From: Crateriforma spongiae
GTDB lineage: Bacteria > Planctomycetota > Planctomycetia > Pirellulales > Pirellulaceae
NCBI RefSeq assembly: GCF_012290005.1
Contig: NZ_JAAXMS010000002.1
Location: 992,001-1,056,000 of the forward strand
Length of the DNA stretch: 64,000 nucleotides
Direction: 5' to 3'
Shown: piece after piece, positions 2,911-64,000 of the stretch
Layout: every line of letters begins with the position of its first letter
How positions within the stretch are numbered: the stretch's first letter is position 1
The notes under the pieces: model-generated
Databases searched by the model: none
What the model was told of the DNA's origin: nothing
What the model saw: only the letters and a program-made list of their open reading frames with translations
Position numbers and translations under genes: made by a program

Positions 2911-3243
2911 GCGTGACGGCAAGAAAAGGGAATGGCTGATATTCGGGTGTCGCGAAGGTGGCTGTGATCCAACAACACCGGTACCAAGCCCGACGGCTCG
3001 ACCACCGCGTTTCGCATCACCGCAGATCGTCCCCAAAGGTGGGGAACTTCTTGACTTTATTCTAGCTTGCCGTCATCACCCGCCCGGTACCCCCGTTTCG
3101 GTTAGAACTTGGAAACTCACAGCTGGGGGGACAGCAGAAACCGAATTCCCGGGTAAACTAGTGCCGTGATGGGAGGGCAAGAGCCACATGACTGGGTGCC
3201 CCCGATCCAAACCCGTCAACTTTTCTAGTCGATCGATCGCTTT
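2911..3243. other. Divergent intergenic region
   Basis: 333 bp between the divergent membrane protein and the HTH gene. Promoters for both genes are expected here. I see no convincing paired -35/-10 boxes, no hairpin followed by a T run and no credible coding frame. A TTGACT at about 3051 has no well-spaced -10 partner. Confidence 0.4.
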
Positions 3244-4389
3244 ATGAGATACGCATTCAGGCTGGCCGAACTGCTCGGACACACTCCGGACCGCCGTAAA
3301 CGCCCCGGAACGATCAAATCCATCGTTGAACACACCGGGCTGGACCGACACCAGGTCGCTTCGCTGTTGAAGAACGAAGCGAAATACATCCCGCTGGAAG
3401 CACTTTCGCGTCTGTGCGATTACCTGATCGATCACGGCTATGCCACCGCCGAACAACTGCCGGGCGCCCTTTTCGCCGTCAACGCGGAAAACTTTTGGGA
3501 ATTGCTGGCCCGTCGCGGCGAAATCGAAATCGTCGTCGGTGTGCGTCAGGCGGACGGCAACGATTCGCCCGAAGGTGCGATGGTCGTCGCCAGTGACAGC
3601 GTTCTGGTCGGCGAACTGCTCAACGGCGTCAGCACCCTGGGCGGCAGTGCCAAGCATCAAGCGGGGGCCGAAGGCAACGCCGAAACCGAAAAAGAAGTCT
3701 TGATGCCCGATCGCCTGCAACAAACGCTGGTTTGGAGCCCCGGTCAGGTGTCGCTGGAAGACGCCCGTGCCCGTGCGACCGAGGTCTTCGAAAGCTTCGT
3801 TAATGCCCAGGGCGACCGCGGATTGGTCTGTATCGGTAGCGTGAAATCCAATCCGGTCGTCGAATTGATGATGAGCGACCTGTTCGGGTGCACCCCGTTT
3901 GTTACCGAAGACGACATCGACGATGCGTCGGCACGAAGTTGCCCGTTTTACCTACGCTACCGCGACAGCGACCCCAAACCCGATGGGGCCAGTGCGGGAA
4001 CCCGGCTAAGCAAGAACGAAGACGCCCCGGAACCCGGGTTCTACTTCGAAAAAGACGACGGGTCCTGGGAATACGCCGGCGGCAAAGACCAAGATACGGC
4101 GCTGGTGTTTTACGTCTTTCGCGAAGCCTTGGGCCGACTGGACATGGTGCTGAGCGGGTTTTCCGGTCGGGCCACCCGCTTGCTGGCCAAAACGCTGGCG
4201 ATCCGCGGTGAAGAATTTTGGCCGCCCGTGTATCACCGCGGCGGGACTCAAATCGGCGCCTATTTGGTGACCTACGAAAACACTGACGGCAAACCCAGCC
4301 GCGACGATCTGCTGTACAACCCCGGCGGTGCGGCAACCATTCTGCCGCTGCCGACCGAAGCGATCGCTCGACGTCTGGCGCGACGCTAG
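3244..4389 (+). CDS. HTH (XRE/Cro-type) DNA-binding protein with large unknown C-terminal domain
   Basis: 381 residues. Residues ~20-65 form a Cro/CI-like helix-turn-helix (SIVEHTGLDRHQVASLLKN, then ALSRLCDYLIDHG), so the protein probably binds DNA. The remaining ~300 residues are a mixed alpha/beta domain with a stretch near residue 200 (GLVCIGSVKSNPVVELMMSD) that looks like a nucleotide-binding-type strand-loop-helix. I cannot assign that domain to a named family. No signal peptide or membrane segment, so cytoplasmic. The gene stands alone, divergent from the membrane protein to its left and convergent with the hydrolase to its right. The targets are unknown. Confidence 0.75.
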   Translation: MRYAFRLAELLGHTPDRRKRPGTIKSIVEHTGLDRHQVASLLKNEAKYIPLEALSRLCDYLIDHGYATAEQLPGALFAVNAENFWELLARRGEIEIVVGVRQADGNDSPEGAMVVASDSVLVGELLNGVSTLGGSAKHQAGAEGNAETEKEVLMPDRLQQTLVWSPGQVSLEDARARATEVFESFVNAQGDRGLVCIGSVKSNPVVELMMSDLFGCTPFVTEDDIDDASARSCPFYLRYRDSDPKPDGASAGTRLSKNEDAPEPGFYFEKDDGSWEYAGGKDQDTALVFYVFREALGRLDMVLSGFSGRATRLLAKTLAIRGEEFWPPVYHRGGTQIGAYLVTYENTDGKPSRDDLLYNPGGAATILPLPTEAIARRLARR

Positions 4390-52300: not shown

Positions 52301-53287
52301 TTATGAACTACTGAAAATCGTACTGGGTCGGCGCCACCACCACAAGCGAATCAGCAGCATCTGAATCACATAAACAATCAGCCAGCATCTGGACTCGGGG
52401 ACAGCCACTACAGGATACAGGAATTGGCGCATTGCATAGTCGTCGTTTCGCAATGGAAACCGTTCACTAATTGGATTGGTCGGCCCAATCCCCAACCCAT
52501 TGGACTCCATCAAGATATCAACACCATAGGTTTGCAAATCGGTAGACGGTACATCGAAGACGCCGAGGCCGATTGATCCCACGGGATCAAAGGGGTCGAC
52601 AAGAAGTGCCCATGAGTTTGTGAGCGTTTGCAAAGGATCATCGGGGTCGTAATTGTCGTCGATAAACGCGCCACCAAAATCCACGTCCCCCAGACCGATG
52701 GCATGACCAATCTCGTGGGTCAATAACCTTCGGAAGATGTCGATTGTGTAGGGCGTACTGGGGTGGTTGTTCAGATGCAAATCGACTCCACCGATGGCAG
52801 CGGACGGTTGGTAATCTTCGACACCAGAAGTCAACGCGACTGGCATTCCTATTCGCGAAACAGCCGTCAGTGCCCGGTAACCAGCCTGCCCCGAATTGCT
52901 GGCGATAAGATCAATCTCGGCCCCCCTGGGATCTAACCGTCCGAAGCCGCCAAGCGTGGCGACCGGAGTTTCAAAATCAGCAAGAAACGAGATGTCGGTA
53001 TGCAGCCCACTTACCGGGTCGACAGCCGTCCAAGCGGAGAACGAGTCATTAATGGCGTTCTGAAATGTGATGACGTCAGGGACAACAGCCCAAGTGAACG
53101 AATCACGAAAAGCTTCATACGATCCGCCGCTAACACTGTACCGAATACCTCCGTCCAGCGATCGTTCATCACCGTCGATGATTCGAGGTGCTGCATCCCA
53201 ACGCGCCTGCAAAAAATCCACCACGCCCCCCGACGCACTTGCGAGAGGAATGAAAAACAGAGTGACAAGTAGGTTAACCCTGATCAT
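52301..53287 (-). CDS. M10-like metallopeptidase with degenerate PEP-CTERM tail
   Basis: 328 residues from ATG 53287, preceded by GGGGAGGT (53291-53298). Signal peptide: IRVNLLVTLFFIPLASAS. The zinc site HEIGHAIGLGD (HExxHxxxGxxD) is that of matrixin-like (M10/metzincin) peptidases; ILMES may be the Met-turn. The C-terminus reads VPESRCWLIVYVIQMLLIRLWWWRRPST: a VPE motif, hydrophobic stretch and Arg-rich end, but with VPES in place of VPEP. It was probably exported and anchored by the PEP-CTERM route, or has lost that signal. Cleaves an unknown protein. Confidence 0.82.
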   Translation of the reverse strand: MIRVNLLVTLFFIPLASASGGVVDFLQARWDAAPRIIDGDERSLDGGIRYSVSGGSYEAFRDSFTWAVVPDVITFQNAINDSFSAWTAVDPVSGLHTDISFLADFETPVATLGGFGRLDPRGAEIDLIASNSGQAGYRALTAVSRIGMPVALTSGVEDYQPSAAIGGVDLHLNNHPSTPYTIDIFRRLLTHEIGHAIGLGDVDFGGAFIDDNYDPDDPLQTLTNSWALLVDPFDPVGSIGLGVFDVPSTDLQTYGVDILMESNGLGIGPTNPISERFPLRNDDYAMRQFLYPVVAVPESRCWLIVYVIQMLLIRLWWWRRPSTIFSSS

Positions 53288-53306
53288 TCGACCTCCCCAA
53301 TCATTG

Positions 53307-53340
53307 AGAAAAGCTGAAGGGCCTCGTGGCCCCTCAGCTT
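53307..53340 (-). terminator. Terminator after the small PEP-CTERM gene
   Basis: Stem AAGCTGAAGGGCC / GGCCCCTCAGCTT (13 bp, one mismatch, 4-nt loop) on the minus strand, followed by TTTTCTC. It lies 20-75 bp upstream of the metallopeptidase start, so transcription from the PEP-CTERM gene probably stops partly here. Confidence 0.65.
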
Positions 53341-53370
53341 TGTCGTGCATTCAGTAAATTCGCCGTAACG

Positions 53371-53979
53371 CTACTGACGAAGTTTCCGGCGTCGATAGGA
53401 ACGAACACCGGCGCCAGCACTCAATAATCCGAGGACGGCAAATGTGGTCGGCTCGGGTACCGCCGTCACTGTTGCCGACGTGATACTACCCGCAGCTTCA
53501 AACCCGATATCAGCCCCGGTAACGTCAGTAAGGATAAAGTCGGTGAGCCGAATCGTTGTATCACCGGGCCCGTCAAAAGTGAAATCGAACGAGAACACTT
53601 CGACAGGGTTGGCAAGATCGACTGCTGCTCCAGAGGTACCAAACGAAGCACCATCAATCAGTCCTGGGTTATCAAATCCTAATGGTGGTCCGTCAATCGT
53701 GAGACCCGATCCAAGCGCGGCATTGTAAGTCACGTTGGAATAGTCATCCGCATCGGTGGTCGTCGCCAGAATAGATGCGCTGGTCGACGCCAGGCCTGTG
53801 AAACTACCAGATGTATCTTCAGCCACCAAGCTGACGGTTACAACGTCGCCCAGGGCGAAAACGCTGGTTTCGCCTCCACCAGAGTTGTACGTTTTGAGCG
53901 CCACCGTGTACGCCGCAAAACATGGAGATGCCATCACCATTGCCACGATGGGGGCAATAAACCGAAGCTGTCGAATCAT
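53371..53979 (-). CDS. PEP-CTERM surface protein
   Basis: 202 residues from ATG 53979, preceded by AAGGAA. A signal peptide (LRFIAPIVAMVMASPCFAA) and a canonical C-terminal VPEPTTFAVLGLLSAGAGVRSYRRRKLRQ (VPEP, hydrophobic helix, Arg tail) define it as an exosortase substrate. The body is Ser/Thr/Asp/Gly-rich and beta-type (VSLVAEDTSGSFTGLASTSAS), resembling the cohesin-like or cadherin-like sections common in such proteins. Exact fold unassigned. The exosortase itself is outside the window. Confidence 0.88.
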   Translation of the reverse strand: MIRQLRFIAPIVAMVMASPCFAAYTVALKTYNSGGGETSVFALGDVVTVSLVAEDTSGSFTGLASTSASILATTTDADDYSNVTYNAALGSGLTIDGPPLGFDNPGLIDGASFGTSGAAVDLANPVEVFSFDFTFDGPGDTTIRLTDFILTDVTGADIGFEAAGSITSATVTAVPEPTTFAVLGLLSAGAGVRSYRRRKLRQ

Positions 53980-54051
53980 AAGAAATTCCTTCCGAAAATG
54001 GTAAACCGTGCGTTTTGGGGGAGAGGCGGGAAGTCCATCGAGTGGGATCAA

Positions 54052-54082
54052 CACCCCCACAGACTACATCGTCTTGGGGGTG
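54052..54082 (-). terminator. Hairpin after the giant Calx-beta gene
   Basis: Inverted repeat CACCCCCACAGAC / GTCTTGGGGGTG (12 pairs with one bulge, 6-nt loop) 26 bp past the giant gene's stop. The T-run on the minus strand is weak (GTTGATC), so it is a probable but imperfect terminator. Confidence 0.6.
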
Positions 54083-54107: not shown

Positions 54108-57100
54108 CTAAAACAATCCTTCCATCAGATCGTCAGAAGCCGTGTCATCTTCGTCCATGTCTGCCATGGCTTGGTCAACGGAGCTTGCTGAACTGCTGGA
54201 AGCCAGCAATGGGCTGACCGACGAACCGCTCAGCGAACCCGGGAACGCCGCAGGTACGGCATCGAACAGGCGAGGAGTGGTTTCCAGGACGTCGTCAATT
54301 GCGATCGTGCCAGACCCGTTAATATCGGCAAAAGCGAAGTAATCGGAATCCGAAGTGTCGCGGAACAGTCGCGCTGTTTCTGCCAGGACATCGTCCACCG
54401 CAACGGTCCCCGATTGGTTGACATCCCCTGGATTGACGCGGAACGAGAACACCAAGTCGCCGCCGGGAGTTCCGTTACCGGAATTGTCCAACCCGCTTCC
54501 AGTCGCATATTCGCCGTCAAGCAGGACATCTCCGGTGCTCTTGATGCCATCACCCAGCACCAACTGGAATGCGTCACGATCAAGTGGCTCAGTAAACTGG
54601 ATCCTCAATCGGTTTCCACTGACCGACGTTGTGAACGTCGGTACGGTCAGCACGGAATTGAAGCTGACTTGTCCGGGCACCGAAAGCGGATCAATGTTGT
54701 CACTGAACTCCACCGTCATCTCGGTGATATTCACCCATGGCAGCGGAGCGTTTTGTCCGCCATCGTCGGGCAGGACATATCCAGTGGTGCCCGTTGTCGC
54801 TCCGGTGGGATCATTGGCCTCATCGCGGAATCCCTGACTCCAAATCGGGTTATTGACTTCGATGCTTGTGACCGAAAGCGGGGCATCGTCGTCCGCGATG
54901 GTGACAACATCCTGATCCATCCCGGCAACGATCGTCGCATCCGTCGTCGCTGGATTGATGCGATAGATCACCAGTTCATCGGGTTCGGGTGTCGGATCAT
55001 TATCGTCGTTGTTGACATCAACGGTAATCACCGAAGACCCTTCACCTGGGTTGATTGTGACCGACGTTGGCAACGCGTCATAGTCAAGGGATGGTGTAGC
55101 AATCGGCGTTGCATCGTTCGGATCGGGATCAACCAGAATCGTATCCAGCAAGATCTCAATGGCCGCCCCCGTGGTGTTAGTGATCGGCATCATATTGCCA
55201 TCCACCAACTGGACGGTGAATTCACCAGCATCGTCAGGTTCGCTCGCATCCGGATCGGTTGCCTTCAGAGTGACGAAGATTCCATCGCCATCGTCCTGAA
55301 TTTCTGCATCCGCGGACGGCATCGCTGGATCCACATCGATGTCGGCGTTGCTAATCACATCAGTGATCGTCAACGTCAAGGTCTCGGTGGACTCAACTGC
55401 GGTATCGTTCACTGCCACTAGTGTCAATTCGCCGGTCGATGTATTTGCATCGATGCGGACGACTCCCGTGCCAAGTGCCGGGTTGAACGACACCAGATCC
55501 GCACCGGTGAAGTTGTAATCCATCGTGGGAGAGGCAATTCCCGGACCCGAGGTTGGGACCGAGAATTCGATCAACGTATCGCTATCGCTGGCCGCCGGAC
55601 CAGTGTCATCATTTAGGAAGAACACAAACTTCGCGTTCGTCCCTGACTCCGTCGCAACCGGATTGCCACCATCGGCGGCATCACTGCTGACCTTGACGGT
55701 CGCTGCGTCGCCGTCGTTGATGCGAACCGTGTCTTCAACGTCGGTGCCAACGGTGACCTGCGGATCAGCCGAGATCAGCGTCGTATCCAGGGTCATCGTG
55801 ACGAATTCATCGTCTTCCAGCAGGTTAACAACGACACTGTTCTCATTCAGAACGGTGTTGTTGAGTGCTTCCACGGTGATCAGAACCGAGGTGTTTGACG
55901 AGCTGGTACTGCCGGGAATCTCCACGCTGTACATTCCGCCACCCAGAGGGGTCAGATTGTTGGCCGGAGGTGCCGAAATCTGGTAGTCGTCATTCAACAC
56001 CGCGTCGCCGGTCAAGGTGAACTTGACCACTGATTTCGACTGACTGGGATTGCTTTGCGTGATGGTAAACGAAGCGTCCTCAAAGTCGGGCGTGTCACCG
56101 TCCTCGGATGCTTCTTCATCACTGGCGTCCACCGAAATGACAGCTTCGTCGTCGTCCGTGATCGTTGCGGTTGAATCGTCGGTAGCGTCGGAACTGCGGG
56201 ATCCCAGATCACCCGCATCCGGCGTCAACGATGCGACAAACGTCTCGGAACCAAACGCCGGCAAGACCGTGGTGGTACCACCTTCAACGATCAAATCTTG
56301 AATGACAGCGACGTCGATTTCCTTACGATCACCGGCACCAAACTGTCCTGATGTGAAGGTGATCGTTTTAGATCCGTTGTCATAATCCGTGCCGAAGGAC
56401 GCCGATCCGCTACTGATACTGGTTCCAGAACCGTTGGAGCTAAAGTTAGCTCCAGTTGCCGTTCCACCACCGAAGCTAACTTCCACATCGACATCAGTAT
56501 CAATGGGGTTGGACAGTTCCACCTCGAATTCGACCGGTGTCGTTGGGGATCCGTTGTTATACGGATTCGGCGAATCGGTACCTTCTGTCACAGTTGGATC
56601 CGCGTCGTCACTCGGATTGCTGCCCTTGGCAAAGATCGTGAACGTTGCAGTGTCGTTGTCCTTGATTGTCCCAACGCCGTTGTCGATGAAGATCGGCAAT
56701 CCGGCAGTTGGATTTGCCAATGAACCACCATCGACGACCAGCTGAGCGGTGAACGTTTCGTCTCGTTCAACCCAGTTATCGTCGTTGATCGGGACACTGA
56801 TCGTTCGAACCAGATCGGATCCACTACCATTGGCCGGGAAATTGACCAGTCCGGTATTGGTATTGACGTAGTCCTGATCCGAAACCGTGTTATCCAGCGG
56901 TGCCGAAGCCCCCGTTGCCGTGTCGGATCCGCTGCCCGGGAAAGTCAGGAACACGTCGACGTCCTGATCGATCGGCTGGTCCAGTTTGATGGTGAACGTG
57001 ATCGTTCCGTCATCTTCATCAGCCATGGCATCCATGACGGTGAAAGTGGGCAGATCATTGTCCTTGATCGTAATCGTCGCCGTATCCATCGTCACATCCG

Positions 57101-60100
57101 GTGTGATATTGGGGTTGCTGGTGGAGGTCACTTCAACCGTCACATCTTCATCGGACTCCAGCACGTTGTCGTCGAGCACCGACAAGTCAATGATGCCAGA
57201 GATATCGCCGGCACCAATCGTTATCGTCCCCGTGAACGACCCCGGTTGAATCGGTGCAGTGGCCGGGCCACCGGACAATAGGTAATCGTCAAAGTAGAAC
57301 GCGTCAAACACTCCGGTGTTCACGGTGTAAGTAACCACCGTGGGTGTCGCACTCGGGGCACTCAAGAACACTTCGAACTTGCCGTCGTTTTGACCTTCAG
57401 GGTCAGTTTCGGATGCATCATCGTCTGCACCGGCGGTGTCACTCTTGATCGACACCAACGCGGTGTCGTTGTCGATGATGCTGACCGTACCACTGGTCAC
57501 TGTCGTGCTTGGGCTGATATCAGCATCGCCGACAGCGGTGCCCAGAACAGCATTCACCGTTTCGGTCGGCTCCAACTCAGGGTCATCCAGGACGTGAACG
57601 CCAATGATGGCTTCGCCGTCTCCGCTACCCAACGTGAAGTCAGGAACTGGCTGACCGGACGTCGGCACGAACGCCGGAATGGTCACCATTTCGCTTAGCG
57701 TTACGTAATCCGCTGCGGCCGTGGCGGTACTCGTTCCAAGCACATCGTATGTGACATCCGTCGCGGTGTCGCTGGCCAATCGTTGGCTCGGGTTGTTCGC
57801 GTCCACCAGGTAGACACGGAACGCCGCGTCGGGATTCAATCCGCCCGGCTCGTTGCCCGTCGGATCCAATGCCACGAATTCAACCATGCCGACGTCGGTG
57901 TCTTCGATGGTGACAGCACTTGATGTCACGTTGGAGGCTGAGATTCCAGGTTCGCCCGACGTGATATCGATCGGTGTCAGTGTCACCGTTTCGTCGTCTT
58001 CCAAGACATAGTCGTTCAACGTGACGACGTTGATCTTGACCGTGGATTCCCCGGCGGGAATCGTCACCAACCCCTTGTTGGTGGCTGGGTTGTAGGTCAA
58101 CGCGTAGCCTGCACCGCTGGTCGTCGGATCCAGAGCAAGCGTAAAGTCGGCACCGGCGGGATCATAGTCTCCCGCACCCAAAGCTCCGTCGGCGGCATCG
58201 CCACCGATCATGAATTCAACGGTGGTATTGCTGATGCTGGTGATCGGTGAACCGCCATTTTCTAGCGTCACCATGAACTGACCGTTGTCGCCGGGACTGT
58301 TCGGCTCGTTGGCATCCGCATCGCTGACCGAAGCGTTCGCGACCGCACCGTCGTTATCGAAGATATTGACTGTGTCGCTTAGGACGTTGCCCAGCATTCG
58401 AACACCGACGCTGGAGACATTTTCGACATTGCCCGAACCGGTGGTCGATTCGTCATCCAACCCGGTCAACGTCACCACAACAGTTTCCGGATCTAGCTCG
58501 ATCAGCAGGTCGTCGATCACCGTCACGTCCAACAGCACCGAACTGGCGCCGGCGGGAATGACCGCCTGACCATCAATGCTGACGCTGACGAAGTCGGGGT
58601 TGGAAGGATCGTAGCCGTCCAGATCGGCGTAGTCGGCCGGGTTCAAGGCACCCGAGGCATCACTCGCTGTCGTGGCGGTTCCGGTAACGGTGTAGTTGAC
58701 GATCGTGTCGCCGAACTGCCACGGGTTTGAGATGCTGATGGTGAATTGACCGTTGTCGCCCGGAACCAGTGGCAAAGTGCCTGGTTCGCTGGCGTTCTGG
58801 TCATTGGCGTTGATGTTGATCTTGAACTCTTCGTCGATGATCGTCACCGTCGCCATGTTCATGCCCATGCCGTCAACAATGATGTCGGGGCAACCGCTGG
58901 CAGGGTCGAAGGTATAGACGAGTTCGCCGCCACCGCCAGTCATACCGCCGCCGCTACCAACGGTGATCGCATTCACCAAGTCATTCGGATTGGTGACTTG
59001 AATCGCCCCCGAGTCGATCAATTGCAAACTGCTTAGACTGGACCCCGAGCCCACGCCGAAGGCACGAATGTTGTCCGCCAATCCCTGAAGCGTGGCCACC
59101 TCATCAGTGAAACCAGAACCACCAAAACCGTCCGAAACAAAAACAACGTTACCGTTTGCCGACGTTGTCCCCGGAAGATGATTCTGGAAGATATCAACTA
59201 CTTCCTGTAGGGCGCTTTCGAAACTGGTACTACCACCAGCTGATAATGCATTGATTACCTGCTCAACGTCATTGGTGCCGTTCATATCACTATCGGTCGT
59301 CGGCGACGTAAAATACTGGAATCCTGGAGTACCGGGTTCCATGTCTATCGCACTCGCACTGGATGTGAAGGGCACAACCGACACTCGGGCGTTGGCCCCA
59401 AATCCGTCAGTGATTAACTGATTGTTCAAGGCGATCAAAGCCGCCTTCTCCGCGGCCAGGATGCCGCCAGACGTGCTTCCTGACACATCCACAGCGAACA
59501 CAAAGTCAGGATCGTTTCCAACGATCACCCCGCCACCGGGCATCGCATCGAGCAGAATCTGATTATCGCCGACGACACCGTCATCGGGACGAGTATCAGT
59601 GGCAACGCCGTAGGTCGGATCAAGGGTCAACTTGACGAACTCGTCACCCATGTCCAGTGGCGGAGTTTCTTCGATCAGTTCGACATCCAGGAACAACATT
59701 GTGTCTCCCGGATCAAACGTCAAATCGATGTACCGGGGCCCAGATGTCGGTGTGACAAAGTTGTCGATCGTATAGTCGCCATCGTTGGTTCCTGTTGTGA
59801 CACTGAACGTAGCAGCGTCTGGAATTGATTCGTCCAACAAAACGCGAACGGTGGTCGGTGTTTCGCTCTCGACAAAATCACCCGTGATCGGATCGACGAT
59901 CGAGATCTTGAACCGCCCGTCGATGCCTGGTGATGTGCCAGGCTGGGTCGATTCAACCGCATTGCCGACGTTCTCGATGATCACCTTGCCGATGTCATCG
60001 TCATAGATCGTAACCGTCTCACGCTCGGAAGGATCGAATCCGATCGTGGCGTTACTTGCCGACAAGACGTTGGTGACTTTGATCGTCACGTCTTCGTCCA

Positions 60101-63100
60101 ATTCGATCAACTCATCTTCAACCACGTCCAACATGACCGTGGCGGAGAATTGGTTGGCGGGAATCGTGATGGCCCAGATGCCTCCACCCAGGTCGGTCAG
60201 ATTATTGGCCGGGTTGGCGGAGAAACTGTAGTCAGTCGCTTCCGCATCGGACATCGATGCGTCGACCATGAAGGCCACTGTGGTATCGGTGCTGCTGGTC
60301 TTGTCCAGGTTGAACGTGAAAGCCCCGGGATTCAAAGGCTCGTCGTCACTACCGTCTCGTTCTTTGGCCAAGTCGTCGCTGGCGGTGAACGAAACGGATG
60401 CCGTTTCGTTGTCCTTGATCAGCACGACGCCCATATCTTCCATGTCGGCGTTGGACGCGACGATGCTGATGTCATCATCGCCAGCGGCGACATCGTCCAA
60501 TCCGATTTCTGCGGTTTCGTCACCCTCAAGAAATGCGTCGTTGAAAACGAATACGGACGGCAACGAATTCACTGCCGGATCAGAATCAAGCATGTCGTCC
60601 AAAGTGTTCTCAAGAGTTTGAGAACTCTGGCCCGCTGGAATCAAAACGTCACCATCCAGTGTCGCAAAGTCCGAACCGTTGGTCGCCGTGCTGGAGGCTT
60701 TATAGGTGTAGTCAACCAAGGTCGGGGTCTGGCTGGTCACCGGGACCCCATTGGCATCTCGCAAGCTGACGACGATGTCTTTGTGCTTGGTCGTCGGGTT
60801 TCCCTCGTGGGCTGGATCCACTGATGCTTCGGCCAATGTGTTGTCGCTGCTGACATACACCTCGGCTTCGTCATGGTCACAGATCACCGCCGTGGCTTCG
60901 GTCATCATCGGCGCGACAATCACCATGCCTTCCGAACTCTCAAATCGCTCGGTTACGGCAATGAACTCGACCACGCCCTGAACACCGCTACCAGTATTTA
61001 CCAGCGTCAGGCTGTACAGGTTGTCAAACGTGTCGATGAACTTGAAGACTCCGTTGCCTTCATAGGCGAATCCTTCGGGCGCCGCACCAGTTGGAATTGG
61101 CAAAATGGGTGAACTGCTTCCGACCAAAGGAATATTCACCTGGGCCAAGGAGAACGGATCGATGGTCTCTAAGAAAGTGAAGCCCGTTGGATTGTCGCTG
61201 CCCCAAAGGTGATAAAGCAAACCGTCATCATCATTGTACGCGAGCCCCGTCGACAGCGTGGACGGGCTAATTGTGGTTGCGACAAAGTTCGACGCGTCCA
61301 AAGGATTGATGAAGAACAGAGCATTGTTGCCGCTGGCCAAATCATCGCCGACACCGTACAGCGAGCCAAATCCAGCATCGAAATCGATTGCATCGATCAG
61401 ATCCCCGAGAACACCCACCAGAGTCGCTTGCCCGGTGTTGCTATCGATGATGTAAAGCGCGTCACCGCCGATTGCATCCTCGGAAAGCGAGGCATAAAAG
61501 TCGCCGGTCAGCGGGTCTTGGGCCAGCGCGTTTCCGGAAAGAATCAACTGACCGACGCCGGGATCGATGGGAACACTGTGGATGGTTTCACCCGTTGCAG
61601 TGCTGATGAGCACCAACTCCTGGCCATCAAACGGCAGCGTCCAGGCGGATCCGCCCAGATAGATATCCGCATCGCCACCGGTAACGTCGTTCAATCCCAG
61701 GGTGACTGTTTCATCGCCTTCGACCTGGGTGTCATTGAAGACATCCACGTTGATCATGATCGACGATTCGTCGGCGGGAATGGTTGCTTCCCACATGCCG
61801 CCGCCCAGCGACGTCAAACCGACAGCATTGTCAGCGGTCAGTTCGTAGTCGGCGATCAAATGGTTTTCAACGGCGACATCCAGCGTGTAATTTTGACCGT
61901 TGTTCGCACTGACGCTGACGGTGTAGACCCCGGCGTCCAAACTGCCCGTGATGAACGGTCCCGAAGAAAGCACGGTCGAACTGGAATCCAGCAGTGTCAT
62001 GGTGCTACCGCCGCCAGAGACACTCAGTTCGATCGAATCACCATCGTTTAGGACAGTGAACGTGTACAAATCATCGGTCGCATCGCCGGTCCCCAAGACT
62101 TTCGTGTGGGGAACACCGGAACCATTGAACTTCCAATGATCGGCTCCTCCGGTCAGCGTGTTGAACGTATCAATGTCCTGTCCGGATGCACTGGATGAAT
62201 TTTCAAGCTGATCGCCCAAGAACGGCGTCGCAGTATCATCGACGGTGAACTTGAACGTGGTGTCGGTACTGGAGGTGGTGACTTGATTGGTCTCCGCCGT
62301 ACTCAGTGTGATCGTAAAGCCTGTGTCCACCGTATCAGCGTCGTTCAGGCGATCATGCCCTTTGTCCTTCGCCGCAACTTTCAGAATTCCTGCGTCATCG
62401 TCCTTAATTAGCACCGCGGCGGTGCTGTTGACAAAGGCGATGTCTTCGATCAGGTCACTGCCGAGACCCGAGTAGGCCGCGAACTGGTTGACATTGACAT
62501 CATTGGCCGCAGTTCCTGTGTTGAACTCCACCCGAGCCAAGCCGGTCGCTTCGTCAGCCACCAAGAATCCATTGCCAGCGAAATTACCTTCCTCGATACC
62601 TTCCATGCCGGTCGCTTCGTCCAAGCTGTCCGGACCCAGAACGGTAATCGCACCACCGGCAAACGCGTCAAACAAGCCAGATCCGGGAGGAAGATCACCA
62701 CCGACTCGGTGAACGATATCGGAACCATTGACCGCGACACCGTAGCTGCCCAGCGATGATGTGGTGCCGGTCGCAGCCGAAGTCGCTGCGGTTGACTTGT
62801 TGATCGTGTAAACCTTGCCGTTGTCTTGAATGCCATACAACTTGCCGGTGCTGTCGAACGTGATACTGACAATGTCGCGGTTCAGCGAACCCACACGTTC
62901 AGCCCAACCGGTCGCAACATCCAGTGTCACCAGAACAGGATCGGATTCCCCGTTGACCGCGACCACTGCGTAGACCTGTTGATCGGTCGGATCGACATCG
63001 ATCCCCAATCCCGCGTCGATCGTCGAACCATCATTCAATGTGATTGGGGCGACCAAACCGACGGTTCCATCTGGAACGGCATCGCCGACATCCACGTTGA

Positions 63101-64000
63101 TGGTTGACAAGTCGGACGAGCTCGATTCAACCGCATAAAGATCACGACGAACGGTGATATCGCCGTCATTCGGGTCGGCAGCGGTTACCGAGGTCAGCGT
63201 CACGGTCACCGATTCCGTTTCTTCGATGATCAGGTCGTTGATGATACTGACATCGATGTAGGCGAACCCGTCAGCGGCCGGAACGACCACACTTCCCGAC
63301 AACGCCGTGTAATCGTCACCGCCAACTGCCGTGCCTCGCACCAAGTAGTCGACCGTCAGATCGCCATCGGCCTTGTTGTAGTTACCCGCAATCGGGCCGC
63401 CCGAGTTCTGCACCAGGGGAAGCTCGACGATGAATTGTGCATCATCCGCTTCCTCGGTACCCATCATGTCGCTGGCACGAACGCTGACCGTCGGATCGGG
63501 TTTGATAATGACGGTGGCACTACCACCGCTACTGACACCGGGATTCGACGAAACGATCGAATCAACGCCCAATTCCACCTGCTCGATGAACTCTTCCAAC
63601 TCGGCGTCATTGGTCACGTTCAAATCGACCGGCCCCGACATCAATTCGAAGGGAGCAAACGTGACGGTCGAACTGGAAAGCGTGTAATCGGAGGTACTGG
63701 CATCCACATAGGGACCGTTACCGGTAATCTGGGCCAGATCGACAACGATCGGTGCATCGCTGTAAGTGCTCAGTTCAAGCTTGTACTGACCATCGTCGTT
63801 GCCCTCTCTCGCCATGTTGTCAGTGGCCACAATCGTGACTTCGACGACATCGTCATCGGTGATCGCCACCGTGGCGGTATTCATCGAGGTCATCGTGACC
63901 GGAGTCACCTGGCTGCTATCAGTACCCGTCAATCCGATCACGACATATTCGGTCGATTCGTTAACGATGTCTTCGAACACGACGACGTCTTCAAACGCCA
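54108..64000 (-). CDS. Giant Calx-beta repeat surface protein with VWA, propeller-like insertions and dockerin-like C-terminus (5' end outside window)
   Basis: Open from the right edge (codons continue past 63980) to the stop at 54108, at least 3,290 residues. About sixteen Calx-beta-type repeats, each ending in a linker such as VSIIDNDTALVSI, ITIKDNDLPTFTV or AVTIEDTDVGMVEF. Embedded are a von Willebrand A domain with intact MIDAS DVSGSTS, GSTSFESALQ and SDGFGG (about 58,955-59,525), two blade-repeat (propeller-like) sections (about 62,420-63,100 and 60,900-61,680), and a PPC-like segment (about 61,870-62,230). The C-terminus has two dockerin/EF-hand-like repeats DVNQSGTVAVDDVL and DINGSGTIAIDDVL (about 54,270-54,430), then a Ser/Asp/Met-rich tail. 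Very acidic, few Cys. Likely a calcium-dependent adhesin or biofilm protein. Confidence 0.92.
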   Translation of the reverse strand, partial: AFEDVVVFEDIVNESTEYVVIGLTGTDSSQVTPVTMTSMNTATVAITDDDVVEVTIVATDNMAREGNDDGQYKLELSTYSDAPIVVDLAQITGNGPYVDASTSDYTLSSSTVTFAPFELMSGPVDLNVTNDAELEEFIEQVELGVDSIVSSNPGVSSGGSATVIIKPDPTVSVRASDMMGTEEADDAQFIVELPLVQNSGGPIAGNYNKADGDLTVDYLVRGTAVGGDDYTALSGSVVVPAADGFAYIDVSIINDLIIEETESVTVTLTSVTAADPNDGDITVRRDLYAVESSSSDLSTINVDVGDAVPDGTVGLVAPITLNDGSTIDAGLGIDVDPTDQQVYAVVAVNGESDPVLVTLDVATGWAERVGSLNRDIVSITFDSTGKLYGIQDNGKVYTINKSTAATSAATGTTSSLGSYGVAVNGSDIVHRVGGDLPPGSGLFDAFAGGAITVLGPDSLDEATGMEGIEEGNFAGNGFLVADEATGLARVEFNTGTAANDVNVNQFAAYSGLGSDLIEDIAFVNSTAAVLIKDDDAGILKVAAKDKGHDRLNDADTVDTGFTITLSTAETNQVTTSSTDTTFKFTVDDTATPFLGDQLENSSSASGQDIDTFNTLTGGADHWKFNGSGVPHTKVLGTGDATDDLYTFTVLNDGDSIELSVSGGGSTMTLLDSSSTVLSSGPFITGSLDAGVYTVSVSANNGQNYTLDVAVENHLIADYELTADNAVGLTSLGGGMWEATIPADESSIMINVDVFNDTQVEGDETVTLGLNDVTGGDADIYLGGSAWTLPFDGQELVLISTATGETIHSVPIDPGVGQLILSGNALAQDPLTGDFYASLSEDAIGGDALYIIDSNTGQATLVGVLGDLIDAIDFDAGFGSLYGVGDDLASGNNALFFINPLDASNFVATTISPSTLSTGLAYNDDDGLLYHLWGSDNPTGFTFLETIDPFSLAQVNIPLVGSSSPILPIPTGAAPEGFAYEGNGVFKFIDTFDNLYSLTLVNTGSGVQGVVEFIAVTERFESSEGMVIVAPMMTEATAVICDHDEAEVYVSSDNTLAEASVDPAHEGNPTTKHKDIVVSLRDANGVPVTSQTPTLVDYTYKASSTATNGSDFATLDGDVLIPAGQSSQTLENTLDDMLDSDPAVNSLPSVFVFNDAFLEGDETAEIGLDDVAAGDDDISIVASNADMEDMGVVLIKDNETASVSFTASDDLAKERDGSDDEPLNPGAFTFNLDKTSSTDTTVAFMVDASMSDAEATDYSFSANPANNLTDLGGGIWAITIPANQFSATVMLDVVEDELIELDEDVTIKVTNVLSASNATIGFDPSERETVTIYDDDIGKVIIENVGNAVESTQPGTSPGIDGRFKISIVDPITGDFVESETPTTVRVLLDESIPDAATFSVTTGTNDGDYTIDNFVTPTSGPRYIDLTFDPGDTMLFLDVELIEETPPLDMGDEFVKLTLDPTYGVATDTRPDDGVVGDNQILLDAMPGGGVIVGNDPDFVFAVDVSGSTSGGILAAEKAALIALNNQLITDGFGANARVSVVPFTSSASAIDMEPGTPGFQYFTSPTTDSDMNGTNDVEQVINALSAGGSTSFESALQEVVDIFQNHLPGTTSANGNVVFVSDGFGGSGFTDEVATLQGLADNIRAFGVGSGSSLSSLQLIDSGAIQVTNPNDLVNAITVGSGGGMTGGGGELVYTFDPASGCPDIIVDGMGMNMATVTIIDEEFKININANDQNASEPGTLPLVPGDNGQFTISISNPWQFGDTIVNYTVTGTATTASDASGALNPADYADLDGYDPSNPDFVSVSIDGQAVIPAGASSVLLDVTVIDDLLIELDPETVVVTLTGLDDESTTGSGNVENVSSVGVRMLGNVLSDTVNIFDNDGAVANASVSDADANEPNSPGDNGQFMVTLENGGSPITSISNTTVEFMIGGDAADGALGAGDYDPAGADFTLALDPTTSGAGYALTYNPATNKGLVTIPAGESTVKINVVTLNDYVLEDDETVTLTPIDITSGEPGISASNVTSSAVTIEDTDVGMVEFVALDPTGNEPGGLNPDAAFRVYLVDANNPSQRLASDTATDVTYDVLGTSTATAAADYVTLSEMVTIPAFVPTSGQPVPDFTLGSGDGEAIIGVHVLDDPELEPTETVNAVLGTAVGDADISPSTTVTSGTVSIIDNDTALVSIKSDTAGADDDASETDPEGQNDGKFEVFLSAPSATPTVVTYTVNTGVFDAFYFDDYLLSGGPATAPIQPGSFTGTITIGAGDISGIIDLSVLDDNVLESDEDVTVEVTSTSNPNITPDVTMDTATITIKDNDLPTFTVMDAMADEDDGTITFTIKLDQPIDQDVDVFLTFPGSGSDTATGASAPLDNTVSDQDYVNTNTGLVNFPANGSGSDLVRTISVPINDDNWVERDETFTAQLVVDGGSLANPTAGLPIFIDNGVGTIKDNDTATFTIFAKGSNPSDDADPTVTEGTDSPNPYNNGSPTTPVEFEVELSNPIDTDVDVEVSFGGGTATGANFSSNGSGTSISSGSASFGTDYDNGSKTITFTSGQFGAGDRKEIDVAVIQDLIVEGGTTTVLPAFGSETFVASLTPDAGDLGSRSSDATDDSTATITDDDEAVISVDASDEEASEDGDTPDFEDASFTITQSNPSQSKSVVKFTLTGDAVLNDDYQISAPPANNLTPLGGGMYSVEIPGSTSSSNTSVLITVEALNNTVLNENSVVVNLLEDDEFVTMTLDTTLISADPQVTVGTDVEDTVRINDGDAATVKVSSDAADGGNPVATESGTNAKFVFFLNDDTGPAASDSDTLIEFSVPTSGPGIASPTMDYNFTGADLVSFNPALGTGVVRIDANTSTGELTLVAVNDTAVESTETLTLTITDVISNADIDVDPAMPSADAEIQDDGDGIFVTLKATDPDASEPDDAGEFTVQLVDGNMMPITNTTGAAIEILLDTILVDPDPNDATPIATPSLDYDALPTSVTINPGEGSSVITVDVNNDDNDPTPEPDELVIYRINPATTDATIVAGMDQDVVTIADDDAPLSVTSIEVNNPIWSQGFRDEANDPTGATTGTTGYVLPDDGGQNAPLPWVNITEMTVEFSDNIDPLSVPGQVSFNSVLTVPTFTTSVSGNRLRIQFTEPLDRDAFQLVLGDGIKSTGDVLLDGEYATGSGLDNSGNGTPGGDLVFSFRVNPGDVNQSGTVAVDDVLAETARLFRDTSDSDYFAFADINGSGTIAIDDVLETTPRLFDAVPAAFPGSLSGSSVSPLLASSSSASSVDQAMADMDEDDTASDDLMEGLF

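Follow-up and report, generated by a model that had tools for sequence, protein, structure and literature searches.

A giant Calx-beta protein interrupted by other domains

The open reading frame at one edge of the window (the whole stretch of 64,000 nucleotides analyzed here, G000:C2:992001-1056000) raises the question of whether the VWA, propeller-like and PPC-like modules that it encodes are inserted into Calx-beta repeats or connect complete repeats as tandem linkers. The frame occupies positions 54108-63998 of the reverse strand, is open at the window edge, and encodes 3,296 residues at the C-terminal end of a protein of 5,181 amino acids. The missing N-terminus, which the initial annotation expected on the next contig, is encoded on the same contig, C2: the whole frame spans G000:C2:1046108-1061653, with the remainder at G000:C2:1056000-1061653 and the N-terminal side ending at C2:1061653. 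The frame opens with TTG, and its true start is uncertain. All features of the protein given below with window coordinates lie on the reverse strand, and residue numbers refer to the full protein.

The designation as a giant Calx-beta protein was borne out by PF03160, which matched with 73.7 bits (cutoff 27) and in four stretches. By reading, the full protein contains about 21 Calx-beta repeats, five of which are interrupted by seven nested modules; three of the split hosts and four of the modules fall within the window. The N-terminus is basic and carries, again by reading, the LEPR-XLL-like motif ALESRQLLA, with PF07595 (Planc_extracel) reaching 15.1 bits (cutoff 25.5). The protein also has three Ig-like domains, for which the profiles Big_13 and Big_6 exceed their cutoffs. 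Nine uninterrupted tandem Calx-beta repeats, delimited by reading and used as alignment rows, occupy 54879..58826 (residues 3610-4925), and the protein ends in a Big_5-like domain, a dockerin-like doubled motif and a tail (54108..54878, residues 4926-5181; PF13205 23.5 bits, cutoff 23.6; PF00404 21.3 bits, cutoff 22.9). No RTX repeat was detected at the C-terminus, where a Pfam search of the last 282 amino acids gave only Big_5 and dockerin. Likewise, sequence profiles of Pfam and NCBIfam recognized no periplasmic retention module in the first 1,000 residues, and the giant protein matched no secretion signal above cutoff in Pfam and none in NCBIfam.

Directly downstream of the giant gene lies a gene (53371-54060) whose small secreted product ends in a PEP-CTERM tail (TIGR02595 16.6 bits, cutoff 16), and a piece resembling the C-terminal part of this product is found just downstream of the giant gene in the related genome G172, described below. 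Also beside the giant gene, 52301-53350 encodes a putative secreted zinc metalloprotease with the motif HEIGHAIGLGDVD and no NCBIfam match. The upstream neighbor, L002:16820-19552, resembles by reading a polytopic membrane protein of the O-antigen ligase type with C-terminal TPR repeats; its NCBIfam matches are weak.

Split hosts and their modules

The window hosts span residues 2055-2420, 2421-2928 and 3221-3609. Strands A to F of the first host (63174..63491, residues 2055-2160), recognized by a PF03160 match and by alignment, are followed in the F-G loop by a beta-propeller of the DUF4394 type (propeller 1; 62439..63161, residues 2165-2405; PF14339 35.9 bits, cutoff 29.6), found at the same site in both orthologs. 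The closing G strand, STAAVLIKDDD (62394..62426, residues 2410-2420), stands after this insert, and all ten repeats used for comparison align their G strand to it.

The second host is interrupted twice. Its strands A to C (62229..62393, residues 2421-2475) and its middle part with strands D to F (61662..61856, residues 2600-2664), both defined by alignment and model, are separated by a PPC module between strand C and the 'DY' segment (61857..62228, residues 2476-2599), identified by its modeled fold (Z 10.4-10.6) and a sub-threshold PF04151 match, and present in the orthologs too. The F-G loop of the same host holds propeller 2 (60918..61661, residues 2665-2912), which resembles propeller 1 (blastp, 3.7e-9) and scores 14 bits, under cutoff, against the DUF4394 profile PF14339. 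The G strand TEATAVICDHD (60870..60902, residues 2918-2928) closes the host according to alignment, model and structure match. A recent origin of propeller 2 as a copy of propeller 1 was rejected, propeller 1 resembling its ortholog (42%, host included) more closely than propeller 2 (29%).

In the third host, strands A to F (59538..59993, residues 3221-3372) and a return segment with the closing G strand, ending in MATVTIIDEE (58827..58883, residues 3591-3609), flank a VWA domain in the F-G loop (58884..59537, residues 3373-3590; PF13519 33.2 bits, cutoff 27; PF00092 26.5 bits, cutoff 23.8; alignment). Both host parts were assigned by alignment, model and structure match. The VWA domain retains its MIDAS residues, with DVSGS at 3389, T at 3476 and D at 3508, and these (DxSxS, T, D) are invariant across its alignment with relatives. 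It begins directly after 'DNQILLDAMPGGGVIVGND', and the linker strand 'ATVTIIDEE' (residues 3601-3609) comes only past it. The initial annotation thus rightly saw a repeat interrupted here, with the correction that 'GGGVIVGND' forms the edge of the VWA module itself, because relatives in unrelated hosts start with 'GGLIQGNxPD'. Direct repeats at the VWA junctions, a signature of mobility, were not found beyond chance.

Two further split hosts lie outside the window. Residues 738-1219 contain two jelly-roll-like modules (755-974 and about 1018-1143), which had no Pfam match and owe their label to reading alone, and residues 1220-1522 contain a PPC-like module at 1289-1449. The profile PF04151 gave 20.6 and 17.3 bits on the PPC modules (cutoff 25.9). 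The VWA domain and the propellers occupy F-G loops, the second PPC module stands between strand C and 'DY', and the remaining modules are placed in the A-B and D-E regions. The claim that propeller and PPC blocks likewise lie between the strands of a repeat therefore stands, with the qualification that the propellers are inserted between F and G and the PPC module earlier.

Alignment and structure models of the split repeats

Ten uninterrupted repeats were aligned by MAFFT to each of the five split hosts, the insert not being indicated. The last strand was placed after the insert in 50/50 cases, including 10/10 repeats for the VWA host, in line with the initial reading that VWA interrupts a Calx-beta repeat. 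Twelve artificial tandem controls, each consisting of a complete repeat, a module and the start of the next repeat, gave this placement in 0/108 alignments; the method therefore separates nested from tandem arrangements. A Calx-beta HMM derived from the repeats of the protein itself was also used to score hosts with the insert excised; this test was discarded even though scores rose upon removal of the insert, because a last strand of 11 residues contributes too little signal: last strands of other repeats scored equally well or better. Mixed alignments of VWA relatives and Calx-beta repeats were also set aside, as MAFFT misaligned them, and for this reason the structure models were built on repeats only.

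AlphaFold2 models were computed for residues 3216-3622 and 2420-2932 from alignments of 11 rows each, including ten paralogous repeats. Their mean pLDDT was low (52.3 and 56.6, respectively), with Calx-beta strands mostly at about 65-94 and the cores of VWA and propeller poorly modeled. In both of these low-confidence models, a seven-strand sandwich resembling CBD1 of NCX1 and Calx is complete across the inserts. With VIA-align, the VWA-host model matched Calx CBD1 (3e9t_A) with Z 8.0 and an rmsd of 3.1 A over 111/112 residues (range 5-393), and the model of the PPC- and propeller-bearing host matched NCX1 CBD1 (3gin_A) with Z 10.2 and an rmsd of 3.0 over 113/116 residues (range 1-510). A Z of 8 is middling by VIA-align's own note; the top sixteen rows for the VWA-host model were all Calx-beta domains, and its best Foldseek match was the Calx-beta domain of integrin beta4. 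Residues 80-177 of the second model form a separate sandwich like PPC and collagen-binding domains (5sv5, Z 10.4; 1nqj, Z 10.6, rmsd 2.0). Where the PPC domain matched C-terminal domains of clostridial proteins, this was taken as a shared sandwich fold, and no function was read from it. The segment-wise prediction proposed in the initial annotation thus returned complete sandwiches across the inserts, and the opposite picture, modules as tandem linkers with complete Calx-beta folds on both sides, was looked for in the predicted structures and not found. Since the long-gap alignment may itself have steered AlphaFold2 in placing the last strand, we regard the models as supporting rather than independent evidence.

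Empty and swapped sites in orthologs

When the C-terminal 1,401 residues were searched against 241 genomes of the family, two full-length relatives emerged, both in one other genus: G172, with a frame of 5,002 amino acids, and G229, with 5,039 amino acids. Aligned to the window protein across about 4,500 residues, they are 44% and 47% identical to it, respectively, and collinear with it. Sampling 397 genomes of the order yielded no further full-length relatives. G001, a one-contig genome of the genus to which the window itself belongs and the only other genome of that genus searched, has no ortholog of the giant gene, so that its distribution is patchy, missing from G001 yet present in another genus of the family.

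Both orthologs possess the VWA host without VWA. After strand F, G172 reads 'GDLQIELDVAPSSSVSSFTTDGGGSGDDDGLIHFQFDEDNPWEDIYVEGMGMNVARVEINDE', and the window protein has the same ends with the VWA domain between them; in the VWA-less proteins, a short loop thus connects strand F with the same GMGMN-x-x-x-I-x-DE strand. The second jelly-roll-like module is missing from both G172 and G229 as well. At the site of propeller 2, where the window protein has a DUF4394-like propeller, the orthologs carry Ldl_recept_b (YWTD) repeats (E 2.1e-15 and 1.6e-8). Propeller 1, the second PPC module and the first jelly-roll-like module are common to all three proteins at the same sites, and the first PPC-like module is also found in G172. 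This comparison, the strongest evidence for nesting, reveals a stalk of unchanging order in whose fixed loops modules are present in one protein, missing from another, or exchanged.

Among the seven inserts, third-position GC content (GC3) is lowest in the VWA domain (58884-59537) and in the second jelly-roll-like module (L002:12226-12603), the two that are missing in the orthologs. Their values are 0.583 and 0.595, compared with a mean of 0.664 (sd 0.042) for windows of the protein, which may weakly hint that these two modules arrived later.

The VWA subfamily in other stalk proteins

A single-sequence scan of genome contigs for relatives of the VWA domain returned no loci, and an alignment query identified 28 loci with the same VWA subfamily in Planctomycetota, Cyanobacteria, Verrucomicrobia and one contig titled Chlamydiae. 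The subfamily is delimited by the edges 'GGLIQGNxPDVVFVIDVSGST' and 'FTSTDELLxxFSG'. By reading, 19 of the 28 loci have the VWA within an SdrD_B repeat, flanked by 'DLNGNGVRD' and 'EPGLxGVxVYLD'. At two tested loci, removing the VWA and joining the flanks gave an SdrD_B match that spans the junction (37.0 and 51.7 bits, cutoff 29.7). The VWA of L025 lies in the A-B loop of a Calx-beta domain; this host scores 68.6 bits for Calx-beta, the joined-flank match lying beyond the junction. In L039 and L041, weakly recognized PPC-like domains host the VWA, and the joined-flank PPC match spans the junction. Hosts of PKD-, DUF11-, cadherin- and RTX-like type were assigned by eye alone, and joined flanks of the PKD- and DUF11-like ones gave no matching hit. 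The VWA of L014 is not nested; a complete domain lies on one side of it and a dockerin-like end on the other.

Two further arrangements were observed. In the cyanobacterial locus L040, a second VWA of this kind opens inside the next SdrD_B-like repeat from about position 4031 ('WNDANGNGVRDPGLIVGVGNLIDVVLAVDVSES'). In L071 (G004:C236:16000-35999), a frame of 9,522 codons encodes a DUF4394-like propeller (C236:27344-27955) between 'TVGGRVGQGPIS' and a PPC match starting at 'TDPADVYALNL', possibly another nested case with a host of the PPC type.

With its short glycine-rich edges, this VWA subfamily may be nomadic, settling in frame within the loops of beta-sandwich stalk folds that are unrelated to one another (SdrD_B, two loops of Calx-beta, PPC-like, and probably PKD-, cadherin-, DUF11- and RTX-like) in Planctomycetota, Cyanobacteria and Verrucomicrobiota, while hot loops of Calx-beta would swap whole domains between orthologs, as with the DUF4394 and YWTD propellers. 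We lean toward this view with some reserve. If it is true, binding specificity could be changed without touching the fiber.

Discussion

Alignment with controls, structure models, the empty and swapped sites of orthologs, and the presence of the VWA subfamily in other folds together support the nesting of whole domains in Calx-beta repeats. We consider it very probable that the protein is a giant planctomycete surface stalk in which about 21 Calx-beta sandwiches follow one another in series, five of them as split domains that display the nested modules. The chain would leave a sandwich at a loop, fold another domain in full (VWA, beta-propeller, PPC or jelly-roll-like), and return to close the sandwich. 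The Calx-beta units would thereby keep the stalk mechanically continuous, and the nested modules might point sideways as interchangeable ligand-binding heads, VWA binding through its MIDAS metal site and the propellers and PPC modules binding glycans or proteins. By analogy with RTX adhesins, RrgA/GBS104 and BapP, we infer a calcium-dependent surface stalk with interchangeable binding heads, in which calcium may rigidify the stalk; surface location, adhesive function and ligand binding are suggested by the same comparison.

Alternatively, the modules could be tandem linkers between complete Calx-beta domains, with 'QILLDAMPGG' or 'GGVIVGND' as the true last strand and ATVTIIDEE as the start of the next repeat. 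A loose likeness of 'GVIVGND' to the closing motif speaks for this, as does the little profile signal of so short a last strand. We nevertheless hold it to be highly improbable, given that 0/10 repeats place the last strand before VWA and the tandem controls behave in the opposite way, that the models contain complete Calx-beta folds across the inserts, that the VWA-less orthologs proceed from strand F by a short loop to the same closing strand, and that GGVIVGN is part of the VWA module in unrelated hosts. An artefact of assembly or annotation, such as a chimeric contig merging pieces of different genes, might be suspected in a draft assembly of 48 contigs, yet the chance of this appears negligible for a single unbroken frame of 5,181 codons whose whole length is collinear with frames in two other genomes; these sister genomes have propeller 1, the second PPC module and the first jelly-roll-like module in identical positions, and G172 the first PPC-like module in addition.

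Accepting the nesting leaves room for other views of function and history. Dockerin-like and LEPR-XLL-like motifs are frequent in planctomycete secreted proteins, and the doubled dockerin-like motif at the C-terminus, together with the ligand binding of the modules being predicted only, would suit a structural protein of the envelope or matrix, or an enzyme scaffold assembled through that C-terminus, with the modules serving a structural role. We judge such a non-adhesive protein unlikely, considering that VWA keeps its MIDAS residues, that modules vary between orthologs on a conserved stalk, as expected for variable binding heads, and that VWA is a recognized adhesive domain of fibrillar adhesins, planctomycetes included (PMC8286594). 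It is also conceivable that both modules missing from the orthologs, VWA and the second jelly-roll-like one, were already present in the ancestor and disappeared from the sister genus, in which case the empty sites reflect loss and not insertion. With just three orthologs, two of them in one genus, this history has a real though lesser chance of being correct; the occurrence of the VWA subfamily in many unrelated hosts and, as a weak hint, the low GC3 of both missing modules argue against it. Which lineage gained or lost a module is, with two genera compared, a tentative inference.

Display of modules on split domains is documented for Gram-negative RTX adhesins, whose 'split' Ig-like domains project ligand-binding modules off the fiber axis (PMC12077191, PMC10865825). 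AhLap of Aeromonas hydrophila, with 5,047 residues, thus displays a CBM, an RTX roll and a vWFA domain (PMC12077191). The protein described here shares with AhLap and with FrhA of Vibrio cholerae (PMC10865825) a tandem beta-sandwich stalk of about 5,000 residues from which binding modules bud out of sandwiches that close after them, and modules of a ligand-binding type are likewise nested in split stalk sandwiches. In contrast to these adhesins, its split domain is Calx-beta, its seven nested modules occupy three or four loop positions and include propellers, module exchange between orthologs is shown, and neither an RTX C-terminus nor a known retention domain was recognized. Because no RTX roll preceding a type I secretion signal was recognized at its C-terminus, we did not file the protein as an RTX adhesin, although it would operate in the manner of a split-domain adhesin.

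In the pilus tip adhesins RrgA and GBS104, a MIDAS-bearing VWA is set into the D1-D2 stalk, between its two halves (PMC7893114). Their VWA within a beta-sandwich stalk of two sequence halves corresponds to the arrangement found here; however, these proteins are Gram-positive and sortase-linked, with one VWA and other stalk folds. BapP of Pseudoalteromonas tunicata, a marine Calx-beta adhesin required for biofilm (PMC12153261), similarly combines Calx-beta repeats with a beta-propeller, but its propeller is N-terminal, separate and not nested, and the protein has 1,600 residues. The integrin alpha I domain (PMC12422189) is comparable in that a VWA in frame in an existing extracellular domain extended ligand binding, although its host is a beta-propeller, in chordates, and the insertion was a single event. 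The initial description of the architecture as an unusual way to build a surface fiber is therefore too broad, nested modules being known from RTX adhesins and nested VWA from RrgA/GBS104. What is new is Calx-beta as the split domain, seven modules per chain, whole propellers as inserts, and module turnover between orthologs. A literature search of partial coverage returned no paper that joins Calx-beta, VWA insertion and planctomycetes.

As a practical rule, repeats that seem to miss a strand should be inspected for unknown binding modules in giant proteins. Hosts with and without a module are both natural here, and the steps of domain insertion thereby become testable. Split-domain display in a planctomycete Calx-beta giant, together with the empty and swapped sites in its orthologs, suggests that this is a general and evolvable design.
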